From Laccaria trichodermophora (Eukaryota; Basidiomycota; Agaricomycetes; Agaricales; Hydnangiaceae), in the NCBI GenBank assembly GCA_018417955.1, contig JACTVC010000008.1, positions 434,001 through 498,000 on the forward strand: DNA of 64,000 bases, given 5' to 3'. The position numbers and the translations under genes are program-made. Shown in pieces: positions 7,711-55,986 of the stretch (positions are counted from its first letter, which is position 1; every line of letters begins with the position of its first letter). The notes beneath the pieces are model-generated. The model was not told the DNA's origin and did no database searches. It worked only from the letters and a program-made list of their open reading frames with translations.

Positions 7711-9319
7711 ATGTCAAAGCGACCCCGCGGTGCCGATTCCTCTCCAGTCGAGCAACGCTCAAAGCGCCGTCATGTCTCTTTCCCGCAGACACCAGTGGCG
7801 TCACCGTCATACTCAACACCCAGCAAAACTCCCTATACACCGTACCCCCTCCGTGCCTCCGACTCGCCTTCAAACCCGTTCGGAAGGAAACGCACCCAAC
7901 GTCTCATCCACACCCTGCCAGCTGAGACCTCCTTCAGTAAACACCTCGCTTTGCGCTTCCAGTTCGTCCGACGTGGCGTGGGCCCCAAGCAGGGAGGCGT
8001 GTATCGCGTCGTCCAAGTCCCTCAGAGCTATACGTTCACCCACCTTCGCTGCTTGATTGCCTTTTTGTTTGGGGTACGCTCGCGTGGCAGTGGGCTGGAG
8101 GAGGACGAGCACTTGTGGCTCTTTATAGTGCGCGGCATAAACCTGGGCAGATCAAGGTGGGAAAGACGTGGGCGAAGCTTTCGAGTGTGCAGGATCCTTG
8201 TAGGTGGCGGTCGATGTATGGACGCGATGCGCTTGAGGATGAGGAAGAGGTGGATGAGAATGAGGAAGCGGAAGTTGAGCTGGAGGAAGATGAGGGAGGC
8301 GAGTGGAAGTGGGAGGATGAAGAGGTTTTTACGGTCGCCCATGCGTGGCCGGAGGGAGTGGACACTGAGAGGGGAATCGTATACGTTCGTTATCTTCTTA
8401 CCCTGCTTCTTTCATTGTTTCTGACCTTGGTGTCTAGCATCACTCCCGAACTACGCAAGTCCATATAACCATCAATACGACCACTATTCCTCGGAGGAAA
8501 GGAATCTCAAACCTGCCGTTCGTTTTCACCGCTCGAGGACGAGTTCACCTTTCGCCAGTCCCTCTCCCTCCGCCCAACTTTGCTGAAGAGGGCTCCGGTC
8601 AAATCCGTCCCCCGACGCGTCTCATCCTCGAAATTGTCGAGCGAGTCACGAAGAACTCTCGCCCAGTTAGAGGCAGATGGGGATTCAGATTCAAAGTTTG
8701 AGTCAAGCCGCCCCTTTGACAAGAACTACCCCTTCGTGATGTCGAATTACGATGACGAGATAGCCAGCGAGACTGAAGAAGAGGAAGACGACAGTGACGG
8801 CGAGGAAGACATTGATGCTATGCTCAACCCGAACAAGTGGAACGACCCCGAAGACGCCTTCGAGCAATACTTGGCCTGGTTCATGGGCCCTCCCCCTGCC
8901 ACGGAGGAAGATTCCACCGAAGAGGAAGACAAAGAGAACTCCAACACCAGCATGATGTCCACCCCGGGACTCAGCCTCTCCTCCCCAGGCATCCCCTCCT
9001 CCTCCCCCTCATCCCCCTTCCGCTCCTCATCCCCAACCTCCTCCTCCGGCTTCTCCCTATACTCCCCCTCCTCCTTCCCACTCTGACCACTACCCCAACA
9101 CGAAGTACAAGTATACGCCCGCACCGCCTAAAGCCAAAGTGGCGAGGATGCGTATTGAGCGCGTGCAGAAGAGGATGGAGAAGGCGAAGAGGGATAAGTG
9201 GTTGTGTGCTAGGGACGAGAGTCCTGAAGTGAAGGGGGCTGAGGTTGATGAGCTTTGTGACGATAAGGAGGAAGAGGATGATGGGAAGTGGGTGAAGCCT
9301 GTGTTGAAGCCTGCATAGC
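7711..9319 (+). pseudogene. pRiA4b Orf3-like protein, frame-disrupted
   Basis: The start is an ATG opening MSKRPRG, followed by a Ser/Pro-rich N-terminus and a block near residues 70-120 (GVYRVVQVPQSYTFTHLRCL) that I recall from the plasmid pRiA4b Orf3-like family of basidiomycetes. The family's later blocks are present but in other frames: ALYSARHKPGQIK near 8117, TQVHITINTT after a likely GT-AG intron at about 8380-8437, an acidic WNDPEDAFEQYLAWF block near 8840, and a basic RMRIERVQKRMEKAKRDKW tail near 9150 ending at a TAG. Frame changes near 8110, between 8570 and 8690, and near 9075 have no usable intron signals. This is either a pseudogene or a gene with assembly indels. The function of the family in fungi is unknown to me. 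Confidence 0.5.
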
Positions 9320-9559
9320 CATGTGATAACCTACAGTCGAGGCCTTGATCTTTTCAATCCATGAGACTAAAGCTTATCTCGCCAGTGGTTAACAGTAGGT
9401 CCTTCCATTTGCACTGCACGCTGATAGATATCCATGCTGATTCCTTCGCACAGTTTGGTACTGCTTGCGACGCTGCGGAAGTCAAGTGGAAGACTTCTGA
9501 GGCTTTGTTGTTGGCAAATTTTTCTGTTGGTCAATGATCAGGATGGCGATGGGCAAGAA
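9320..9559. other. Intergenic
   Basis: Short gap between the broken pRiA4b-like gene and the duplicated block. Nothing specific seen. Confidence 0.3.
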
Positions 9560-10660
9560 CCTCATCAAATCCCTGTCTTCTTGCATCAATATCCGTTCCT
9601 CATCCCATTAGCAGCCGTCCAACCCCATCCGCCTCACACCTGCCTCCTCCACTCCCCCAAACTATGTATTTCTCTTGCGCGAAACAGGCGAGCAGAAGGC
9701 ACCATCCACAACTCCCCCTTCACAACCCAACCTCGGTCCTATCTCGCCTCTCGTACACCGGAATCCTCATACAGACCCCCACCGCCCTCTAGCATTTCCG
9801 TGGTTGGCGTTTCTCAGATAGACGGCTAGTTCCTTTTCTTAGCCGTCGGGACTGGAACGACGATGAGCCTCGGACTCGTTGGTTGGAAATGACGGGGATG
9901 GGACAGAGAGTCGCCGCCGTTTAGCGGATACTATTCCGCAGATCTCTTCCAACCGGAGTTGATTCGCATCACGAACGGACATTGGAGCTCCTCAACAATC
10001 ACGACAATTCGTGAGGAGCGTGAACGAAGACGGCGGCGGCGAGGGTTGAGTTCATTTTTGTTAGATGGTTCCGCGAACACCTTCATCCCCTGGATGGGTG
10101 TCGACCCCCCAAACTCAGCAGACCTCACTTGTCTATCACAATCCACGCCAACCCATCTGTTCTTCTCCTCCCACTCATGCCGTCTCATCCGCGATGCCCT
10201 ATGACCGCAATCTGACCGTATTCCTTGGATCTTGATCACTGTATCGTCCACTCGTTTCCATCGTCTTCTGCCCTCGTCATACCCACATCCTGTCTGTCGT
10301 CTCTCTTGAAGACGCTGGGACGCACGCTTTCCGCTACCCCATCTCTGAACTGTCTTCCACGACGCAATCTACGGTTCTACGGTGTAGCAGCTCAGTTCGT
10401 TTACAGCTGGTCATGGTTGAAGGTTCTGGTTGGGCTCAGACCTTACCCGTGAACTGTGCTGGGAGTTAGAGTTTCGTCGAAGCCTTTGATGTTCACTTGT
10501 GAAAATAAGTGACGACGATGCTTGAAAGAGCGCTTGCAGGCGAAGGGAGGCTCGTGGTCTTCAAATTCCATCAACTTGAGCTCAAACGGCTTTTGATTCA
10601 CCGGTAGAGAGACTTCCCGAGTATGGCTCTCTTTGTTCCCATCATGGCGGTGGCTCACGA
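9560..10660 (+). repeat. Duplicated gene-fragment block, copy 1
   Basis: About 1.1 kb is homologous, inverted and diverged, to 26000-27450. Translated fragments match between copies, for example SSAMPYDRNLTVFL here against SSAMPYQRNLTAFL there, ALVIPTSC in both, and an MLERAL..VVF segment followed by PSMALFVPIMAVA. The matches survive as protein-like pieces in several frames, so both copies look like broken members of one unidentified gene family. I do not recognise the family. Confidence 0.6.
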
Positions 10661-40132: not shown

Positions 40133-42173
40133 GTGGACACTGTGGGAAATCAATGTGCCCTGGCCGACTCAACAATCAAAGATGCTACGACAGCCGACCA
40201 GGATAGTGCCGACCCTCTCCCAAGGAGAAACTTGAGCGGAGTCACCACTTCAAGGCCCTCGTACTCTTTCAATCGAGCCAGCTCTTCCAAATCGACACTG
40301 CCTGCTTCACGTTCAGCTTCTTGTTCCACATCCCCTAAGAAAGGAACTACGAAGGCTACCACTACCAAATCAGCTTCCCAGGAGCTCTCTTCAAAGTCCC
40401 ATAAGAAAGCACATGTGGAAGCTATTTCGAAATCAGCACCTTTCCATTCAAAAACATCCCTCACACCCTGAAGCACTGAAATTCTCAACGCCTTTAACAA
40501 TACCCCTACTTCACCTATCCATGCTCTAAATTTTTCCATGGCTACTCCTTTGCAAACACCAACTACGTTATCTAGTGTACACATCACCAGAGAATTCAAA
40601 GCAGCGACCAGACAATCCTGACCAACTCCTGAAGCTCATACTACACTCCCAGCGAATCAAGTTGTCTCCTCCCCACCCACAACCAGTCAAACCATTGAAC
40701 CAATCGTCGAAGTCAATATGGAAATGGAGAGGACCAGCCACTTAGGTATGGAGGATGGATTCAATAACTCACCGATGGCAAAGTTACTATGAGAATATAC
40801 AGGAGAGGCAGGCGAAGCCGACAATTTAGAAACTGCTCTAGTTCCTACTCAAATGAACGTAGGCCTAGTACTAGACTTGGTGGAATTATCAGACAAAATG
40901 GTAGTAGATAGAGGACCCATTAGAGACAAAGGGCTACCTCGATACCACTTGGATGCCCTGACCCTGGGCAGAATAACTACCGTAGTGACGGAACAACAGA
41001 TTTTTCTGGAACGGGCAGCTGGTCTCATAGAAGAACAGACTGACTATTTCAAAGTGGACCCGGGAGACACGCTGCTGCTGATCTTGAAAGGCACTTCAAG
41101 TTTGCCTCAACTACATGCGGCCTGGAAGCCCTAAGACATAGAATTGAGTTGGGCACTAAAGCTTGGAGCAAATACATTATGGAGTACAGACTTCCAATAG
41201 ACTCAAAACCAGTCCTTTCCCCACTGTCTATGCTGCCTGAGCTCTATCTACCGCTACAAGACATTGCGGATCAAGACGATAAGTTATGATATCTATACAA
41301 GCACATCCCTCACCACCAAGAACAGCTCACCAGTGAAGGGAAACAATCCTTATACAATACACATTCGTGGCTAGACATCCTGCCAGTCCCAGATGCACTC
41401 AAAAGCGTCTTCATGGAAAATAAGACAGATGCCCCACTGACAACAGACACCAGAGAAGACAAGAGGATGTCGAAAGGGAAAGAAAAGGAGCAACCCACAG
41501 GCGCACAATCTTCAATCTGGATGGGGATGGAAACGCCTTTCAAGAGCTCCAATTCTTGGTTTGTGAACCCAGGCAAAAGCAACAGAGTGAAGCAGCCAGG
41601 TACCTCGAGGCCCCCTGCAGAACTGAACATCCTCCTTGGAATCGCCACTCCCACAGTGCCTTCGACAGCGAAAGCATGGGAAGGGTGAGATCAACTGCCA
41701 CACATGCCTGTACAGTCCCAAGCCCTATGGCCAGAGAAGGCAGGGTCTTGAGCAAGTTCCCGTGCAAGTGGGAAACATGACCGCGCACGTCACCGGGAAC
41801 GCAGAGAAAGCAGGAGAGAGCCAGATGAGCCTCCAAGCAGTGATGACGACAGTAATTCGTCCAGGACAGTTTGATCTCGTCAGAGCTGCAGTCAAAAGAG
41901 ACGTTTGCACACCCCCAAGCCTCGGAGGCGACGATCATCGACTCCTCAACCAAGACAGAGGAAGCCACCACCAGGCGACGATGGAGGGGATGACGGCGAT
42001 GGAAGTAACAGCAGCAACTATTCTTCCTATTCGTCCTCTGGTAGCACATGTTCAGGATCTAGGAGGCATCATCAAAGATGGTCCAAAGATAGTGTGGTCA
42101 TTCCTTATGGTTGAATCGCCCCGACTATCGACGCAAAACTGAAACAGGAAGACTTACCGACATGGGACGAGTG
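40133..42173 (+). pseudogene. Ty3/Gypsy gag, N-terminal part, decayed
   Basis: A Ser/Thr/Lys-rich leader (40133-40471) continues in the same frame through TGA codons at 40469, 40619 and 40790. A frame change near 41100 follows, then a frame with IELGTKAWSKYIMEYRLPI interrupted by TGA at 41287. Another frame near 41905 carries a Gly/Asp/Ser-rich stretch (PPPGDDGGDDGDGSNSSN), a TGA at 42112, and the conserved TIDAKLKQEDLPTW. That last motif is the usual lead-in to the capsid region of basidiomycete Gypsy Gag. The capsid follows only after the 8.3-kb palindrome, at 50491. Gag forms the virus-like particle; this copy cannot be translated intact. Confidence 0.65.
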
Positions 42174-42309
42174 GTCCCTACCACTTTTATGATAAACTAC
42201 AGGCAATTGCCTGCACAGCGATTTGATCATTGCCTAGCTTTTTATGAAATGAAATACATAAGGCAAACCTTATGAAATTCATCTCATTTCTTCCCAAGGC
42301 TTTATATCA

Positions 42310-42860
42310 TTGCAATTTCATTTCTATTTCATTCCTCCCCAGGATTTCATTTCATTTTTTTTCCCCACTTTATTTCATTTCTGCCCAGGACAATTTTTCA
42401 TTGTGATATTGTTGGTATTTCATTTCTGTCTCATTGCAATATTTTTGGTATTTCATTTCTGTTTCATTGCGATATTTTGGTATTTCATTTCTGTTTCATT
42501 GCAATATTTTTGGTATTTCATTCCTGCCTGGCATCATTTTTCATTACAATATTTAGGTATTTCATTTCTGTTTCATTGCAACATTTTTGGTATTTCATTT
42601 CTGTTTCATTGCGATATTTTGAGTATTTCATTTCTGTTTCATTGCGATATTTTGGGTATTTCATTTCTGTTTCATTGCAATATTTTGGGTATTTCAATTC
42701 TGTTTCATTGCAATATTTTTGGTATTTCATTCCTGCCTAGCATCATTTTTCATTGCGATATTTTGGTATTTCATTTCTGTTTCATTGTGATATTTTGGTA
42801 TTTCATTCCTGCCTAGCATCATTTTTCATTGCAATATTTAGGTATTTCATTTCTGCCTAG
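42310..42860 (+). repeat. ~33-bp tandem array (left copy)
   Basis: Units built on ATTTCATTTCTGTTTCATTG followed by CAATATTTTGGT. The mirror array at 49740-50292 is about 66 bp longer, the size of two units, and accounts for most of the length difference between arms. Confidence 0.8.
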
Positions 42861-42874
42861 CATCATAGCAAAAA

Positions 42875-43215
42875 AAATTGGAAAAAGATATGAATGGTGC
42901 ACAGAACATCAGGCACTGCCTTCAGGGTCCACTTCACAGTCCATCCCAAAGAGGAAACATCACCTGGTTTGACCAATAAGAGGAGAATGTTGTTACCTAT
43001 CAGAATGTAATGGGATGTTGGGATGATGGTCACATGACCAATTACCAAAAATGGTCAAAAAACCAAAGTTGTAGCCCTACACTGTAGCTTCCCGAATCTG
43101 TTTGAATTATATTCTGAAGTGCTCCTGTTATGGAGATATGAGGTAAAGGAATTTCAAAATTGTTGTGTTTTTTGTTTTTTGTTTTTTGTGTTTTTCTCCA
43201 TGAAAACAAAACCAA
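42875..43215 (+). repeat. Module M1 (outer copy, left arm)
   Basis: About 330 bp that recur in direct orientation at 44790-45122 with moderate divergence. Shared blocks include CAGGCACTGCCTTCAGGGTC, GGGATGATGGTCACATGACC and GATATGAGGTAAAGGAATTT. Mirror copy at 49387-49727. Confidence 0.8.
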
Positions 43216-44789
43216 ACCACTTCAGTCACCCATTTTTGGGTACCTATGAGGTTATCCAATTCTTTGAATTAGGGAACCTTAGTGGTACCCCATTCCAGAG
43301 TGGTATGACCCTCATACCAATTCCATCATACCATGGTATGGATACCACATACCATACCATACCATACCATACCATACCATACCATTCCATTCCATACCAT
43401 ACCATACCATACCATACCATTCACCAAACCAAACCAAACCATTCCATACCATACCATACCATCATTCCATAGCTGTCACAGGGTGTCTGGGGTCCTTTCT
43501 ACAAAATTTGAAAATTATTTCTCCAGGCTGCAATACTGATCCATTGGGCTCCATTTTTTGTGGATTGGTTCTTCAGATTTCTTCAGACATTTTAAGCTAC
43601 CAGTGGAGGCTATAGGATGAACTTGATCCTTTGAAAATTCACTTGAAAATTAGCTTGATTGGGCTTTATCCCAGGGTTTGGCCATTTTCACTGTGGATAA
43701 TCTATCACAAGCCACTTAAAAGTGTATATCTTGCCAGGCCATTTATATTCATGACAAATAAATCAATGTTGTATCCATCACAATGGCATGGGCTCTGAAG
43801 GAAAACAAGAATTTTGCAAGACTTTATTTATTGCAAAGGCATGAACTTTAGCCAAATTACTACCCAAGGCAAGGATGCCTTCTTCAGATTGAATATGTTC
43901 AAAATTTGCCATTTATGAAAAAGTATGGGGTCATTCCATAGGAATGGGATCATCAAAAAACTTGGATTTGGAATCTCCTCATATCTGCCACTCAGCAGAG
44001 CTGGGATTGTGGGGAATTTGGATTTGAACATTTGAACACAAGCAGGCCAAGACTTCTAATTACAAGCTTCAAGATATCATTATTAAATATAGCTATTCTA
44101 ATTTAAATAAAAATTCTGTCTTTCATACAATTAATCAGGGATGGTGAAGAGGTCCATAACATTGACAGCAATATGAACAAATGCTATGGACATTCACCTA
44201 TGAGGGAGCAACTTGGGAGATGCTCTTGGAACAGATTGCCAATTCCTTATCCCACATATCTTCAGAATCATACAATAGAGATGGAATCATACCATAGGGG
44301 TGGAATCATACCATACCATGGGAATGGGATTATACCATGAGAATGGAATCATTCCATTGAGATCATACCATGGAGATGGAATCATACCAAGAACATGGAA
44401 TCATTCCATTGGGATCATACCATGAAGATGGAATCATACCAAGAACATGGAATCATTCCATTGGATCATACCATGAAGATGGAATCATACCATGAAGATG
44501 GAATCATACCAAGGACATGGAATCATACCATACCATACAGAGATTTGCTTACAACATCCATATGTTAAAACACATAATAACAACCACATGAAATTTTCAT
44601 GTAAGCCAAATATGGTAATATAGCCAGGAATAGCCAGGAATAGCCAGAAAATAGCCAGAAAATCAGAAAAAAATGGCAGGGTGGTGCTCACTGTTGGTGA
44701 TGACATTGGGGTTGTTTTCAGGGTCCAGGGCACATTTCCAAATATGGTAATATATCCAAAATAGCCAGAAAATAGCGAAAAAATTGGAA

Positions 44790-45122
44790 AAAACATATGA
44801 ATGGCATACAGAACATCAGGCACTGCCTTCAGGGTCCATTCCAAAAGGGAAATATCACCTGGTTTGACTTAAAAGTGAAGAAAACCAAGACAAGAATGAT
44901 TTGACCTATCAGGGTCCATGTAATGGGTTGTTGGGATGATGGTCACATGACCAATTACCAAAAATGGTCAAAAACGAAAGTTGTAGCCCTACACTGTAAT
45001 TTCCCAAATCTGTTTGAATTATATTCTGAAGTGCTCCCGTTGTGGAGATATGAGGTAAAGGAATTTCAAAAGTGTCACGTTTTTTTGTTTTTTGTGTTTT
45101 TCTCCATGAAAACAAAACCAAA
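44790..45122 (+). repeat. Module M2 (inner copy, left arm)
   Basis: Direct repeat of M1 within the same arm, mirrored at 47480-47812. The palindrome therefore carries four copies of this module, two in each orientation. Confidence 0.8.
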
Positions 45123-45269
45123 TAACATGATTTTAGTATATTTAGAAAGCTAAAAGAAAGGGCTACAATTATTGTATTGTGGGAAAATTGACCAAAAAAG
45201 GAAGGTGCATGCCCTGATAGACTATAAAAGTCAGACTTAGACTACAAAAGCTAGGGTTAGGGTCAAAAG

Positions 45270-45730
45270 GTTATCTTGGCTACAAAGTTTGTAGTGTCTG
45301 CTTTTTGTCATTACAAAAGTTTGTAGTGTGTGCTTTTTCATCAGAAAAGTTTGTATTGTCTTCTTTTTGTCATTAGAAATGTTTGTATTGTCTGCTTTTT
45401 GTCATTAGAAAAGATTGTAGTGTGCGCTTTTTCATTAGAAAAGTTTGTATTGTCTACTATTTGAGACTACAAAAGATTGTAGTGTGCACTTTTTCATTAG
45501 AAAAGTTTGTAGTGTACACTTTTTTAGTACAAAAGTTTGTATTGTCTGCTTTTTGTCATTAGAAAAGATTGTAGTGTGCACTTTTTCATTAGAAAAGTTT
45601 GTAGTGTACACTTTTTTAGTACAAAAGTTTGTATTGTCTGCTTTTTGTCATTAGAAAAGTTTGTAGTGTGCACTTTTTCATTAGAAAAGTTTGCAGTGTC
45701 TACTTTTTGAGACTCCAACAGGTTATAGTG
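45270..45730 (+). repeat. AAGTTTGTAGTGTGCAC-type tandem array
   Basis: Units of about 30 bp alternate between CATTAGAAAAGTTTGTAGTG and TTTGTATTGTCTGCTTTTTG versions. Mirrored at 46872-47332. Confidence 0.8.
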
Positions 45731-45858
45731 TCTGCTTTTTCATTTAAAAAATGTTTTTGCTGACATGTACTTTATGGTGTCCTTGGCCCTATCTATGTTA
45801 TGGGGATGAGGTTGAAGGATTGCCATCCTTTTGCCAGTGCTGCAGCATTAGTTTTTGA

Positions 45859-46743
45859 CATCATGCACAAGTTGTCTTTCACATTAGGAAAGGCCATTCT
45901 AAGCCTTTCATATTGATACCTACTGTCTGATCAAAAAACCTAATTATCAGTTGATGTGGGGATATGGCTGAAGGATTGACATGACATCACCAGGTTTTAA
46001 CATCATGACCATGTTACCTTTCATCCTGTCTGCTTTCACATTGATAGCTACTGGCCTGTCTGAAACATAGTCAACTTTGATACATTCATGTGGGGATATC
46101 ACTGAAGGATTAATTTAACATAACATCACCAGTTTTTTACATCATGACCAAGTTGGCTTTCAATGATTGGCTGATTCATTCTTGGAGGTGTCTTTAAGTC
46201 AGGTCATGTTGCAAGTTGACTATGTATTGAGTAGATATCAACATGAATAGCCTCCTCTACCTTGAAAAGACAACTTTGGCATCATGTGAGAAACTGATGA
46301 TGTAGCAATAGCAATATGTAAAGTCATGTCAATCCTTCAGCCATATCCACATGAGTAGGTATCCATATGAAAGGCTTAGAATGGCCTTTCCTAATGCAAA
46401 AGACAACTTGTGCATGATGTCAAAAACTGTGATATAGGATTGGAAGGGAATGCCCAGAGGCCATAGTCAAACAGTGGTATATAGCTAGATTTGGATATCT
46501 TACATAATATATTGATCTTTTGTCTTGAACAACCACCTTGTCAGCAGTCTTGCCATCCTCTTGCACTACATGTAGTGCTTTGTATATCTGTACTTCCTAC
46601 AGTATGCATAATTATGTTGGGCCAGCTGAGTATCTTGTAACTGCTCATTGCTCACTCATGGGTGTTGATCCCAGATCCACCCAGTCTTGCCTCCTCCTTC
46701 CCTCTTGGCTTCAGCTATGCAAGAAGTTCAGAGTGAACGCTTC
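45859..46743. other. Central spacer of the palindrome
   Basis: Unpaired in the main register, but it contains its own smaller, offset inverted repeat: about 45853-45990 matches the reverse complement of about 46320-46430 (shared GACATCATGCACAAGTTGTC on the left). Two direct repeats on GGGGATAT..CTGAAGGATT lie at about 45957 and 46093. An 88-codon frame at 46538 has no recognisable features. Confidence 0.6.
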
Positions 46744-49700
46744 ACAAAAACGAATGCAGCAACACTGGCAAAAGGATGGCAATCCTTCAACCTCATCCCC
46801 ATAACATAGACAGGGCCAAGGACACCATGCACCACATGTCAGCAACAAAGTTTTTTAAATGAAAAAGCAGACACTATAACCTTTTGTAGTCTCAAAAAGT
46901 AGACACTGCAAACTTTTCTAATGAAAAAGTGCACACTACAAACTTTTCTAATGACAAAAAGCAGACAATACAAACTTTTGTACTAAAAAAGTGTACACTA
47001 CAAACTTTTCTAATGAAAAAGTGCACACTACAATCTTTTCTAATGACAAAAAGCAGACAATACAAACTTTTGTACTAAAAAAGTGTACACTACAAACTTT
47101 TCTAATGAAAAAGTGCACACTACAATCTTTTGTAGTCTCAAATAGTAGACAATACAAACTTTTCTAATGAAAAAGCGCACACTACAATCTTTTCTAATGA
47201 CAAAAAGCAGACAATACAAACATTTCTAATGACAAAAAGAAGACAATACAAACTTTTCTGATGAAAAAGCACACACTACAAACTTTTGTAATGACAAAAA
47301 GCAGACACTACAAACTTTGTAGCCAAGATAACCTTTTGACCCTAACCCTAGCTTTTGTAGTCTAAGTCTGACTTTTATAGTCTATCAGGGCATGCACCTT
47401 CCTTTTTTGGTCAATTTTCCCACAATACAATAATTGTAGCCCTTTCTTTTAGCTTTCTAAATATACTAAAATCATGTTATTTGGTTTTGTTTTCATGGAG
47501 AAAAACACAAAAAACAAAAAAACGTGACACTTTTGAAATTCCTTTACCTCATATCTCCACAACGGGAGCACTTCAGAATATAATTCAAACAGATTTGGGA
47601 AATTACAGTGTAGGGCTACAACTTTCGTTTTTGACCATTTTTGGTAATTGGTCATGTGACCATCATCCCAACAACCCATTACATGGACCCTGATAGGTCA
47701 AATCATTCTTGTCTTGGTTTTCTTCACTTTTAAGTCAAACCAGGTGATATTTCCCTTTTGGAATGGACCCTGAAGGCAGTGCCTGATGTTCTGTATGCCA
47801 TTCATATGTTTTTTCCAATTTTTTCGCTATTTTCTGGCTATTTTGGATATATTACCATATTTGGAAATGTGCCCTGGACCCTGAAAACAACCCCAATGTC
47901 ATCACCAACAGTGAGCACCACCCTGCCATTTTTTTCTGATTTTCTGGCTATTTTCTGGCTATTCCTGGCTATTCCTGGCTATATTACCATATTTGGCTTA
48001 CATGAAAATTTCATGTGGTTGTTATTATGTGTTTTAACATATGGATGTTGTAAGCAAATCTCTGTATGGTATGGTATGATTCCATGTCCTTGGTATGATT
48101 CCATCTTCATGGTATGATTCCATCTTCATGGTATGATCCAATGGAATGATTCCATGTTCTTGGTATGATTCCATCTTCATGGTATGATCCCAATGGAATG
48201 ATTCCATGTTCTTGGTATGATTCCATCTCCATGGTATGATCTCAATGGAATGATTCCATTCTCATGGTATAATCCCATTCCCATGGTATGGTATGATTCC
48301 ACCCCTATGGTATGATTCCATCTCTATTGTATGATTCTGAAGATATGTGGGATAAGGAATTGGCAATCTGTTCCAAGAGCATCTCCCAAGTTGCTCCCTC
48401 ATAGGTGAATGTCCATAGCATTTGTTCATATTGCTGTCAATGTTATGGACCTCTTCACCATCCCTGATTAATTGTATGAAAGACAGAATTTTTATTTAAA
48501 TTAGAATAGCTATATTTAATAATGATATCTTGAAGCTTGTAATTAGAAGTCTTGGCCTGCTTGTGTTCAAATGTTCAAATCCAAATTCCCCACAATCCCA
48601 GCTCTGCTGAGTGGCAGATATGAGGAGATTCCAAATCCAAGTTTTTTGATGATCCCATTCCTATGGAATGACCCCATACTTTTTCATAAATGGCAAATTT
48701 TGAACATATTCAATCTGAAGAAGGCATCCTTGCCTTGGGTAGTAATTTGGCTAAAGTTCATGCCTTTGCAATAAATAAAGTCTTGCAAAATTCTTGTTTT
48801 CCTTCAGAGCCCATGCCATTGTGATGGATACAACATTGATTTATTTGTCATGAATATAAATGGCCTGGCAAGATATACACTTTTAAGTGGCTTGTGATAG
48901 ATTATCCACAGTGAAAATGGCCAAACCCTGGGATAAAGCCCAATCAAGCTAATTTTCAAGTGAATTTTCAAAGGATCAAGTTCATCCTATAGCCTCCACT
49001 GGTAGCTTAAAATGTCTGAAGAAATCTGAAGAACCAATCCACAAAAAATGGAGCCCAATGGATCAGTATTGCAGCCTGGAGAAATAATTTTCAAATTTTG
49101 TAGAAAGGACCCCAGACACCCTGTGACAGCTATGGAATGATGGTATGGTATGGTATGGAATGGTTTGGTTTGGTTTGGTGAATGGTATGGTATGGTATGG
49201 TATGGTATGGAATGGAATGGTATGGTATGGTATGGTATGGTATGGTATGGTATGTGGTATCCATACCATGGTATGATGGAATTGGTATGAGGGTCATACC
49301 ACTCTGGAATGGGGTACCACTAAGGTTCCCTAATTCAAAGAATTGGATAACCTCATAGGTACCCAAAAATGGGTGACTGAAGTGGTTTGGTTTTGTTTTC
49401 ATGGAGAAAAACACAAAAAACAAAAAACAAAAAACACAACAATTTTGAAATTCCTTTACCTCATATCTCCATAACAGGAGCACTTCAGAATATAATTCAA
49501 ACAGATTCGGGAAGCTACAGTGTAGGGCTACAACTTTGGTTTTTTGACCATTTTTGGTAATTGGTCATGTGACCATCATCCCAACATCCCATTACATTCT
49601 GATAGGTAACAACATTCTCCTCTTATTGGTCAAACCAGGTGATGTTTCCTCTTTGGGATGGACTGTGAAGTGGACCCTGAAGGCAGTGCCTGATGTTCTG

Positions 49701-50490
49701 TGCACCATTCATATCTTTTTCCAATTTTTTTTGCTATGATGCTAGGCAGAAATGAAATACCTAAATATTGCAATGAAAAATGATGCTAGGCAGGAATGAA
49801 ATACCAAAATATCACAATGAAACAGAAATGAAATACCAAAATATCGCAATGAAACAGAAATGAAATACTCAAAATATCGCAATGAAAAATGATGCTAGGC
49901 AGGAATGAAATACCAAAAATATTGCAATGAAACAGAAATGAAATACCAAAAATATTGCAATGAAACAGAAATGAAATACCCAAAATATTGCAATGAAACA
50001 GAAATGAAATACCCAAAATATCGCAATGAAACAGAAATGAAATACTCAAAATATCGCAATGAAACAGAAATGAAATACCAAAAATGTTGCAATGAAACAG
50101 AAATGAAATACCTAAATATTGTAATGAAAAATGATGCCAGGCAGGAATGAAATACCAAAAATATTGCAATGAAACAGAAATGAAATACCAAAATATCGCA
50201 ATGAAACAGAAATGAAATACCAAAAATATTGCAATGAGACAGAAATGAAATACCAACAATATCACAATGAAAAATTGTCCTGGGCAGAAATGAAATAAAA
50301 TGGGGGAAAAAAATGAAATGAAATCCTGGGGAGGAATGAAATAGAAATGAAATTGCAATGATATAAAGCCTTGGGAAGAAATGAGATGCATTTCATAAGG
50401 TTTGCCTTATGTATTTCATTTCATAAAAAGCTAGGCAATGATCAAATCGCTGTGCAGGCAATTGCCTGTAGTTTATCATAAAAAGTGGTA
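46744..50490 (-). repeat. Right arm of the palindrome
   Basis: Reverse complement of the left arm, with the same order of arrays and modules: M2 copy 47480-47812, M1 copy 49387-49727, ATGGTATGGT microsatellite 49140-49255, 33-bp array 49740-50292. Longer than the left arm by about 66 bp. Confidence 0.85.
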
Positions 50491-51425
50491 GGGACTAGTG
50501 ATGGGAAGGCAACCCCAACACGGCAATCGAGTATTTTTGGAAGGTGCAGCAACAAGCCACCTTGGGAGGGTACATACCTTCTGTGCTAGGGTATTGGCTC
50601 TGGCTAAAGTTGAAGGAGGGATCAGACGTTCAGAATTGGTTCGCTACTTTACCTTTCAAAGAACAGTCCAGAATGCGTGGACCTTGGGTCGATTACTTGA
50701 AAGGGATCAAGGAAGGCTACTTGGGTCACAACTGGCAGTTTGACATTGCGGAAGCATACAAAGCTCAGTACTTCAGGCAGCCAGGTCACGAACGAGAATT
50801 GCCTAAGTCTGTTATCACACGTCATATTATGTACACTAGGATGCTAGCTAAATCAGATGACAGAGGACCCCTCGAAGTTCATCTAGTCATGGCAAGGGCT
50901 CCTTTGCTGTGGAGGACTATTCTCATACTCAAAAACATTAAATCTTCGTCAATGCTGTACACCAAAGCCGCCGAACATGAAGCTGCGCTTATTGAAATCT
51001 CATGAAGTCGGGCACAGTCGTCCAACGCAATCACCTCAGAGAATCTTGTGTCTACTCTAAACAAGATGGGATATACTCTGGACAGATCGAAATTTCAGAA
51101 CTTTCCGCAGAATAGGAGAGCCAACTTGACTTACAATGATGAGGAAGTGAAGCCACCAAGTGAAGAATCAAAGGAATCTTATACAACACAAGCAGTCAGC
51201 CAGGAAACACATTCCAACAGGCAAGAGAAGATTCTCACAGAAGTCTTTCAAGTCTTGAAGAAGAGGCAACGTCCCCCACCACCTGGAGGTTCCATGTTTT
51301 CTAAAAACAATCATGTTACTACAAAGATGGGGAGGATGCCCCCTTCACCTTGCAAATGTTGTGGTAGCACTAACCACTGGGACAAGGAGTGCCCCGACAG
51401 GCTGTCTACCTGGAAAAAACAGTGA
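50491..51425 (+). pseudogene. Ty3/Gypsy gag, capsid and zinc knuckle
   Basis: The Gag frame resumes with NTAIEYFWKVQQQATLGGY and runs through the conserved basidiomycete Gypsy capsid region (LPFKEQSRMRGPWVDYLKGI, then MYTRMLAKSDDRGPLEVHLV). A single in-frame TGA at 51003-51005 interrupts it. It ends with a classical CX2CX4HX4C zinc knuckle (CKCCGSTNHWDKEC), which binds retroelement RNA. The N-terminal part of the same Gag lies upstream of the palindrome at 40133-42173. Confidence 0.8.
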
Positions 51426-53384: not shown

Positions 53385-54713
53385 TAGTGCTTGGAAGTCC
53401 AGTCCCAAGACTGGAAAAAGACCAAGACTGGACTGGACCAAGACTGCCGAAGACCGGAAATTCCCAAGACTGTCAAAGACCGCAACCATGGTCCGGTCTT
53501 CGGTCTCGAACGATTTCGGAAATTCTAAGACTGACAAAAGACCGGTTAGACTGGTCTCAACTGGTTTTTGTAACCAAATACAAACACAACTTTCCTCCTC
53601 CTACCACCACCTTCCCCATCACCATCACCACCCTTTCATGACTACTGCTCTGCATCGTGAGTGCCTGCAATGGGCTAAACGACATACACATCGACCGCCA
53701 CCTCATGCGCTGAAACCTCTGCAACAACATCCACATGGCCATGGTGTGCCACGTCCTCCATGACGACACCCCCCGCCATGCTCTCAACATTGCCTATGGC
53801 CACCACCTCCCACAACTGTCGTCAACCACTCACACCTACCTTGGCCCACACACGCACACCAACCACAGCAGCAACAATGAGCGCCAGCTCAGTTGACAGT
53901 GCATGGAGACAATGACGTGGCACCCCTTTGGGTGTGCCACATTGTCGAGAACAACTGTCGTCAACTGCTCACACCCACCTTGGCCCACACACGCACACCA
54001 ACCACAGCAGCAACAATGAGTGCCAGCTCAGTCGACAGCGGATGGAGACAATGATGTGGCACCCCTTTGGGTGTGCCACGCCATCGAGATGGTGATGGTG
54101 GCACCTGTAGGGCAGGTGAGTAGACTGTATGCTCTACCACCCTTTTCCTCCTATCTAATAGCCACAATGTCCAGCTGCCTTCGTAACACCTGCCAACCAC
54201 CGCCATGTCACCTTGCCCTCTGCTACCTTTGGCATTGACAACACACAACGACGACCACGCAACGACGATGGAGACAGGTGGACGACAATGACACGATGTC
54301 ACAGTAACAATGGATGACCACAACAATGATTGACAACTGAGGGCAATGTGATGAATGAGATGGGCGACGACGGACTACCATAAGGACACATGAGTGCTCC
54401 CCCCCCGCTTCCTACCCCCCTCGTTCGACCTCATGTAGCACTAGCCTAACGCAGTATAATTAGTCATTTACATACATGTTTTACCCAACTCAGTAGCTAC
54501 AAGACCGGTCCTCAACCAGTCCTCAACCAGTTGAGACTCAGACTGGTTGAGACTTGTCTTTCAACTGTAAAAAACCGACGAAGACTGCACTGAACCGGTT
54601 GATGTCAGTTCAGTCCAGTTTTCTGTGGTTAATCAACCTGTGAAGACTGGTCCCAGTCCCAGTCTTGTCAAATTTTGACAAAAGACCGGACTGGACCAGA
54701 CTTCCAAGCACTA
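53385..54713. mobile_element. 1,329-bp hAT-like non-autonomous element
   Basis: Inverted ends TAGTGCTTGGAAGTC are flanked by perfect 8-bp duplications TCTATCAG (53377-53384 and 54714-54721). Subterminal DNA is full of GACTGG/CCAGTC/GACCGG motifs. The interior holds a tandem duplication of about 139 bp (53816-53954 and 53955-54092), each unit containing TGGCACCCCTTTGGGTGTGC. No transposase is encoded. It splits the Gypsy RT frame, which rejoins perfectly across one copy of the duplication. Confidence 0.85.
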
Positions 54714-55740
54714 TCTATCAGTCTGTGGAGTGTGCCGGTAGTCATCGCGTATCGCAACGGTAAACCAAGATTCTGTGTCAACTACAGGAAGCTGAATGTG
54801 GTTACGATTCCCAATGAATTCCCAATCCCGTGTCAATCAGAGATCCTTTCTTCATTGTCAGGCACTCAGGTCTTATCTTCGATAGACGCTCTGTCAGGTT
54901 TCACTCAGTTGGAGCTACATGAAGAGGACGTGGAGAAGACCGCTTTCCGAACACACAGAGGGCTATTTCAGTTCAAAAGAATGCTGTTTGGTTTGAGAAA
55001 CAGTCCATCCATCTTCCAGAGGGTCATGCAAGGGATCTTGGCACCCTACTTATGGTTATTCTGCCTTGTTTACATTGACGACATAGTAATATTCTCCAAA
55101 TCCTATGAAGAACATATCCTACACCTGGACAAGGTTTTGGAAGCCATTGAGAAAGCAGGAATTACCCTCTCACTGAATAAATGCCACTTATTCTATGGGT
55201 CCATCCTCCTCTTGGGTCATCAAGTGTCGAGACTGGGGCTTTCAACCCATGAAGAGAAGGTCAAAGCCATATTAGAGTTGGAGCGACCTAGAAAGTTGTC
55301 TCAGCTGCAGACATTCCTCGGTATGGTCGTTTATTTCTCTACCTTCATCCCTTATTATGCTTCCATCTGTGCCCCGTTATTCCAATTGATGCGGAAGGGT
55401 GCTAAATGGAAGTGGGGGGTGGAGGAGGAATACGCCTTCCAAGCAGCTAAGGAAGCTTTGCAATCCAGCCCAGTATTGGGGCATCCAATCGAAGGGCGGC
55501 CATACTGTCTCTACACAGACGCATCAGATGAGGCAGCTGGATGTGCTCTACAACAAATACAACCAATTCAAGTCAAGGATCTCAAAGGTACCAGAGCTTA
55601 CAGTCATTTACGGAAAGCCTACAATGAAGGATTGCCACCGCCTAAGCTTACCATGACTTTGAGTGCCAAAACGGCTGACAGCCCTGTGGACGACAAGTGG
55701 GGTGCTGACTTCAATTCTACAGTGGTTCATGTGACACAAG
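54714..55740 (+). CDS. Ty3/Gypsy reverse transcriptase and start of RNase H (fragment)
   Basis: Continues the RT frame with SLWSVPVVIAYRNGKPRFC. It has the first catalytic Asp block (SSIDALSGFTQLELHEED), the FKRMLFGLRNSPSIFQRVM block and the YIDD catalytic motif (LVYIDDIVIFSKS). The connection region and the start of RNase H follow (GRPYCLYTDASDEAAGCAL). There is no stop or frameshift in this part, so the element is not very old. Homology ends at STVVHVT near 55738, where unrelated repeats begin; the rest of RNase H and the integrase are absent. Reverse transcriptase would copy element RNA in the particle, but this is only a fragment. Confidence 0.85.
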
Positions 55741-55986
55741 TAGACATAGGTGTCCCTATAGTACCATAAAAGTACAACATGAACAATTGTCCTATGGGTC
55801 ATAGGACTACCCAAATGGGCCCAATAAGCAACTAGACTATGGTGCTGTAGATTGCCCCAAAGGTGTAAAAACACCTAATGTTTATCATTGGGCCAAATGA
55901 CCCCAGATGTCTTAGGCAAAAATGGATGGTGAAATTAGGAGAGGGAGTTCCGAAATACACTATTCCAGGGCATATGTCCCATGAAC
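55741..55986. other. Unidentified insertion joining RNase H to the satellite
   Basis: Non-coding DNA interrupts the Gypsy RNase H. It begins near a short imperfect palindrome (ATAGGTGTCCCTATAG). Its right limit merges into the satellite. Confidence 0.4.

Follow-up and report, generated by a model that had tools for sequence, protein, structure and literature searches.

The 64,000-nucleotide stretch of Laccaria trichodermophora DNA analysed here (assembly GCA_018417955.1, contig JACTVC010000008.1, positions 434,001 to 498,000; hereafter the window, to which all unlabelled positions refer) carries a large palindromic mobile element that we consider, with a probability of about 0.78, to be a composite fold-back transposon, non-autonomous and derived from the little-studied KDZ superfamily. 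An outer element, A, is inserted into a Gypsy retrotransposon with a 7-bp target duplication, and a second element, B, is nested in A, its two ends meeting the A arms at mirrored positions. The ends of B correspond to the terminal repeats of elements that encode KDZ transposases. Copies of A and of B are scattered through the genome, mostly with 7-bp duplications. The original prediction, made from the letters of this stretch alone, had described a single fold-back element; the fold-back structure stood, while the nesting of two elements, the KDZ-encoding relatives and a solo long terminal repeat (LTR) in the spacer had been missed. What is new relative to that prediction is the KDZ origin and the overrun of the palindrome beyond element tips.

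Self-comparison of the window paired positions 42748-45857 with 46745-49854, that is, 3,110 nt with zero indels and a mirror sum of 92,602, as expected from the near-perfect palindrome that had been predicted. All 13 mismatches between the arms fall within 45715-45850, and the tract from 42748 to 45714 (2,967 bp) matches the opposite arm without any mismatch. The outermost 551 nt of the arms pair at 99%, with the register offset in 33-bp steps; left and right arms differ in the number of 33-bp units and in their terminal six bases (left, GAGTGG; right, CACTAG). The whole mobile element measures 8,332 bp (42169-50500) and thereby extends beyond the previously proposed 42174..50490 by five bases on the left and ten on the right. 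The seven identical mirrored frame pairs claimed for it were recovered in part, as four pairs of at least 90 amino acids (aa), and, as had been stated, no transposase was recognised in the element. Most of its length consists of long, modular inverted repeats that contain tandem arrays; together with the target duplication and the dispersed copies described below, they support its reading as a fold-back transposon.

The left and right flanks were queried separately against the whole genome. Uninterrupted paralogues of the Gypsy site were present at C18, C33 and C77, where the two flank matches abut (66-96% identity) and overlap by 5-7 bp, consistent with a 7-bp duplication. The C18 empty site, CGACATGGGACGGCAACCCC, corresponds in the window to CGACATGGGAC, followed by the element and then by ATGGGAAGGCAACCCC. 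Some 4 kb downstream of the element there is a frame for a Gypsy reverse transcriptase. These paralogues and this PF00078 frame bear out the proposed insertion into a Gypsy element; the two frames adjoining the insertion had no Pfam match above the cut-off, and "gag" is a label that we take from position.

Comparison with other genomic copies separated the two elements. Copies of A (L021 and one at C45) align with the window as far as 43217, resume at 44772-45215 and continue to 45985, and copies of B start at 43218 with the tip CACTTCAGTCACCC and run to the centre. The window thus has B within A. B sits at the same mirrored base of both A arms, with the junctions AAACCAAAC and GTTTGGTTT, and A and B fold-backs have a core sequence in common. 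A genome-wide search for the B tip gave 202 occurrences, and one for A-type tips, including related subfamilies, gave 71 (both with up to 3 mismatches); a broader A-type pattern gave 213 occurrences (up to 2 mismatches). Given this recurrence, and with 0 hits for the reversed-pattern control in each case, chance is excluded.

We next consider the flanks of these copies. Among 20 pairs of B tips, from which the alternative pairings L017:1506-8231 and L018:1990-9242 were excluded, 13 had a perfect 7-bp duplication, one had an 8-bp duplication, four had inverted flanks and two had none. Perfect 7-bp duplications also border seven of the 12 A pairs (the window has 6/7, L035 has 5/7 and three have none) and seven of nine further A-type pairs (none in the other two). 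These nine were picked as one tip of each type and are no test of tip unlikeness. A GAGTGG-type tip facing a CACTAG-type tip was seen in 11 of the 12 A pairs, and we rejected this arrangement as a universal property because the A-type tips of the genome also include candidate pairs of facing tips of like type (C34:1981465/1985617, C1:4508890/4513216 and C45:1662166/1664994).

Some copies have features of their own. L078 (C1:4486600-4496590) is a second B element between two A tips; it has an 8-bp duplication and an arm pair of 2,065 bp at 99.95%, and the surrounding A tips are without a duplication. At C67:900145-900774, just 0.6 kb separates two facing B tips, which possibly represent a miniature derivative. 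A 17-kb A element (L049/L050, C45:1107650-1124629) with a perfect TGACGAT duplication holds a 2,241-aa frame. As a candidate autonomous copy it was rejected, since this frame reads as a Helitron-like Rep/helicase, which we take to be a nested guest.

The relationship between B and KDZ transposons is seen in a 20,780-bp element at C63:14460-35239, which is bordered by CTTTACC on both sides, has terminal inverted repeats (TIRs) of 727 bp at 98.8% identity and encodes a KDZ frame (PF18758, E 1.4e-59) as well as a CxC1 frame (E 4.6e-7). At each end, 627 bp of it are 95% identical to the window's B arm. Another KDZ-bearing element, L010 (C22; one tip fetched), matches the B arm at 96.4% over 1,211 columns, has its KDZ match 4 kb inside the tip and provides the sister of the window's B arms in the tree (99/98). 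KDZ-bearing B elements at C10 and C17 are flanked by the perfect duplications CCTGATT and CCTTCTG, respectively. When 150 listed of 182 KDZ matches were compared by hand with the listed places of the 202 B tips, 11 matches were found 2.7-4.0 kb inward of a B tip, each of them pointing toward it, where simple arithmetic that ignores clustering (155 rows) predicts about 0.5. A KDZ protein search returned 782 relatives at E ≤1e-3, with a top identity of 97% among the best 120. The terminal repeats that B has in common with PF18758-encoding elements argue strongly, at the level of sequence, for a KDZ origin of B.

Within the C63 element, the searched frames contained no TET/JBP domain. Its 538- and 590-aa frames (L027:5708-7321 and 8053-9822, minus strand) had no Pfam match, and near-identical DNA of both occurs in L020. 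A 16-kb B element at C30 (L025/L026, C30:442804-458970), with TIRs of about 2.5 kb at 98%, was considered as a candidate and set aside: none of the KDZ matches listed (150 of 182) lay there, and one of its frames weakly resembles an integrase (PF00589, E 0.013, below the cut-off).

For A, the relevant relative is a single degraded and diverged KDZ element at C23:2753993-2765064 with A-type tips and TAGGATG on both sides. Its ends are about 75% like the window's A arm over 164-201 columns. Three other KDZ matches, at C9, C3 and C17, are arranged likewise with respect to A-type tips, at distances of 2.6-4.1 kb, with about one expected, and point weakly in the same direction. Judged from these comparisons, a KDZ origin of A appears moderately supported.

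Under simple descent, the two arms of an element would be expected to form separate lineages. In nine of ten elements, the two arms differed by just 0-0.5% (658 aligned columns), and in seven of ten they were mutually closest and formed exclusive pairs in the tree (3 of 31 tips were omitted for poor arm match, and L018_m9242 was also omitted from the tree). This suggests that one arm was recopied from the other, in keeping with the earlier proposal of recent formation or ongoing conversion between arms. Moreover, the palindrome overruns the B tips in four of the 20 B pairs. In the window, the identical tract extends 470 bp beyond the B tip into A; the other overruns, each at 100% identity, measure 58 bp at L024, 570 bp at L017 and at least 773 bp at C39. 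The flank at L017 belongs to a dispersed repeat; its two copies at this locus are identical, other matches reaching at most 81% except for a 48-bp local piece, and the arms of L024 are identical over about 2.5 kb each, almost without a loop. Arm recopying is thus well supported as a pattern, and from this pattern we infer the mechanism. One-sided arm copying would explain both the four overruns and the lack of a direct B duplication in the window.

We hypothesize that KDZ transposases from elsewhere in the genome act in trans on the tips of A and B. B would have inserted into one A arm, and a break or a collapsed fork close to the centre of the palindrome might then have been repaired with one arm as the template for the other. 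One side would thereby become a copy of the other, comprising half of B and about 470 bp of A, and the copied side would join the original opposite A arm inside the homologous repeat array. Such one-sided copying would maintain arm identity, permit a new shell and at times overrun the tip. Conceivably, KDZ transposition itself drives the growth of palindromes, with breaks at tips or centre leading to fold-back copying, homogenised arms, captured neighbour DNA and stacked shells, and with nested palindromes enlarging through repeated insertion and self-templated copying, an extension that we put forward as possible though doubtful.

Several observations weigh against the proposed KDZ origin and recopying. 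Four KDZ matches among those listed (C10, C18, C19 and C45) are located outside a B tip at a distance of up to 4 kb, which shows a background of transposon clustering. The KDZ match of the C23 element has four stops in the domain, and no intact A-type KDZ element was seen among the KDZ matches listed. No duplication borders the B pairs L023 and L063/064 or the A pairs L031, L045 and L047, that of L035 agrees at only 5/7 positions and that of one B pair is 8 bp long. The arms of L018 are 10% apart, those of the C63 element are nearer to L020 than to each other and those of L014 are tied with L013. Two Laccaria Kyakuja families are reported to lack TIRs (Kojima 2025, PMC12730594), whereas the C63 element has a 727-bp TIR at 98.8%; the lack of TIRs may not define the group. 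Lastly, which arm was copied, and when, is inferred.

How else could such a structure arise? A fold-back chimera or a missed adapter might have produced a false inverted duplication during sequencing or assembly, and 2,967 bp without a mismatch, or the nearly loopless identical arms of L024, are what one might expect from such an artefact. However, the window element has a 7-bp duplication (6/7) and three empty sites, its arms differ at the tips (GAGTGG versus CACTAG), in repeat number and near the centre, the LTR is one-sided and many other pairs have target duplications, all of which makes an artefact highly improbable. It seems rather unlikely, too, that the arms are identical solely because the palindrome formed very recently and with no recurrent copying: a tract of 2,967 bp without any mismatch is compatible with one recent event, but within-element likeness recurs in seven of ten elements of differing sequence, and the overrun lengths vary by locus. 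The mirrored position of B within A could also stem from a precise deletion that fused a B tip with the A arm of the other side, which would result in the same order of parts. Since the cut would have been needed at exactly the mirrored base, and the overruns at L017, L024 and C39 would be left unexplained, we consider this scenario very unlikely.

A further alternative concerns A alone, which might have been moved by another transposase that generates 7-bp duplications, for example a hAT of the hAT7 type, with KDZ acting on B only. hAT7 elements with 7-bp duplications have been reported from rust fungi (PMC12730594), a hAT gene is found 2 kb from one A-type tip and, by hand reading, five other hAT matches lie at most 3 kb outside A-type tips. 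However, the single inside case has neither an A-type partner tip nor an exact 7-bp flank copy within the 9.6 kb retrieved, and hAT was not supported as the source of A. Moreover, both A-type tips and a perfect duplication do occur on a KDZ element, and A and B fold-backs have a common core. We therefore regard a hAT origin of A as unlikely and favor the KDZ origin for both elements.

With respect to known KDZ elements, the two Laccaria Kyakuja families have 7-bp duplications and CA..TG termini, while Zisupton and a Dileera have 8-bp duplications (PMC12730594). The elements described here resemble Kyakuja in the KDZ domain, the 7-bp duplications (13/20 perfect for B) and the CA..TG termini, B tips reading CACT..AGTG; A tips are mixed in this respect. 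Cryptococcus KDZ1-3 have TIRs of 139-241 bp, duplications of 4-8 bp and CxC1 (PMC12810828). KDZ domain, CxC1 and TIRs are likewise found here, but with a 727-bp TIR and multi-kb fold-back derivatives. TIR motifs of KDZ or Plavaka elements have also been characterised in a mushroom (PMC8290104). The closest structural parallel is Galileo, a P superfamily transposon of Drosophila, which also makes 7-bp duplications; one 9,021-bp copy is composed of two long TIRs that contain tandem repeats and pieces of other transposons, and non-TIR sequence has been recruited into its TIRs, a precedent for guests in both arms (PMC4168063). It differs in being an insect element with a P-type transposase, and the accessible part of that report describes no palindrome beyond the element tips. 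FB4 (PMC4022104) and Tetris (PMC4079207) of Drosophila are also non-autonomous with long modular inverted repeats, in Tetris with internal tandem repeats as here; they are not fungal, and no KDZ link is described in the accessible parts.

Searches of open-licence literature, judged by titles and abstract openings, listed no KDZ or fungal fold-back of this kind, in line with the initial statement that no described fungal counterpart of this size and fidelity was known. To our knowledge, how fold-backs gain and keep kilobase-long perfect arms is an open question. Here, a single genome holds plain-TIR KDZ elements, fold-backs of various sizes, mirrored nesting and tip-overrunning palindromes, which look like stages of one process and can be compared base by base. 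These data tie a KDZ family to fold-back elements, supply candidate transposase-tip pairs and make the origin and upkeep of giant palindromes testable.

Table 1. Features of the composite element and its insertion site (window positions).
Feature	Position	Strand	Basis or remark
Left target duplication ATGGGAC	42162..42168	+	Empty sites C18, C33, C77
Outer fold-back element A, 8,332 bp	42169..50500	.	Self-pairing, flank read-out
A tip, GAGTGGTCCCTACCAC type	42169..42184	+	
33-bp tandem array, left A arm	42396..42855	+	
Module M1, outer copy, left	42865..43217	+	A sequence ends at 43217
Inner fold-back element B, 6,167 bp, tips CACTTCAGTCACCC	43218..49384	.	Flanks are inverted copies, without direct target duplication
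Left B arm end, KDZ-type terminal repeat	43218..44390	+	Alignment, tree
52-bp-type tandem array, left	44265..44532	+	
M1, inner copy, left	44772..45122	+	83% to outer copy; begins core common to A and B elements
Core tandem array (30/62/92 bp), left	45284..45740	+	
Spacer, 887 bp	45858..46744	.	
Solo-LTR-like insert, 319 bp, TG..CA	46428..46746	.	
Core tandem array, right	46862..47318	-	
M1, inner copy, right	47480..47830	-	Mirror of left
52-bp-type tandem array, right	48071..48337	-	
Right B arm end, KDZ-type terminal repeat	48212..49384	-	Mirror of left
Module M1, outer copy, right	49385..49737	-	Mirror of left
33-bp tandem array, right A arm	49736..50297	-	
A tip, CACTAGTCCCTACCAC type	50485..50500	-	
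Right target duplication ATGGGAA	50501..50507	+	6/7 versus left copy; C18 empty site has ATGGGAC
Gypsy reverse transcriptase/RNase H frame of host retrotransposon	54633..55766	+	PF00078, E 2.3e-29

The spacer between the arms, for which 885 bp had been claimed, measured 887 bp (45858-46744) and consists in part of a solo-LTR-like insert bordered by AAAAC duplications at 46423-46427 and 46747-46751. Several copies elsewhere (e.g. at C77, C1 and C6) match the spacer on either side of the insertion point and lack the insert. With the LTR set aside, the centre is self-complementary further inward, over 224 bp at 93%. As the spacer contains this 319-bp insert, the original loop was shorter. Matches to the solo-LTR-like repeat at 98-99% identity were also found at C20, C1, C23, C12 and C67.

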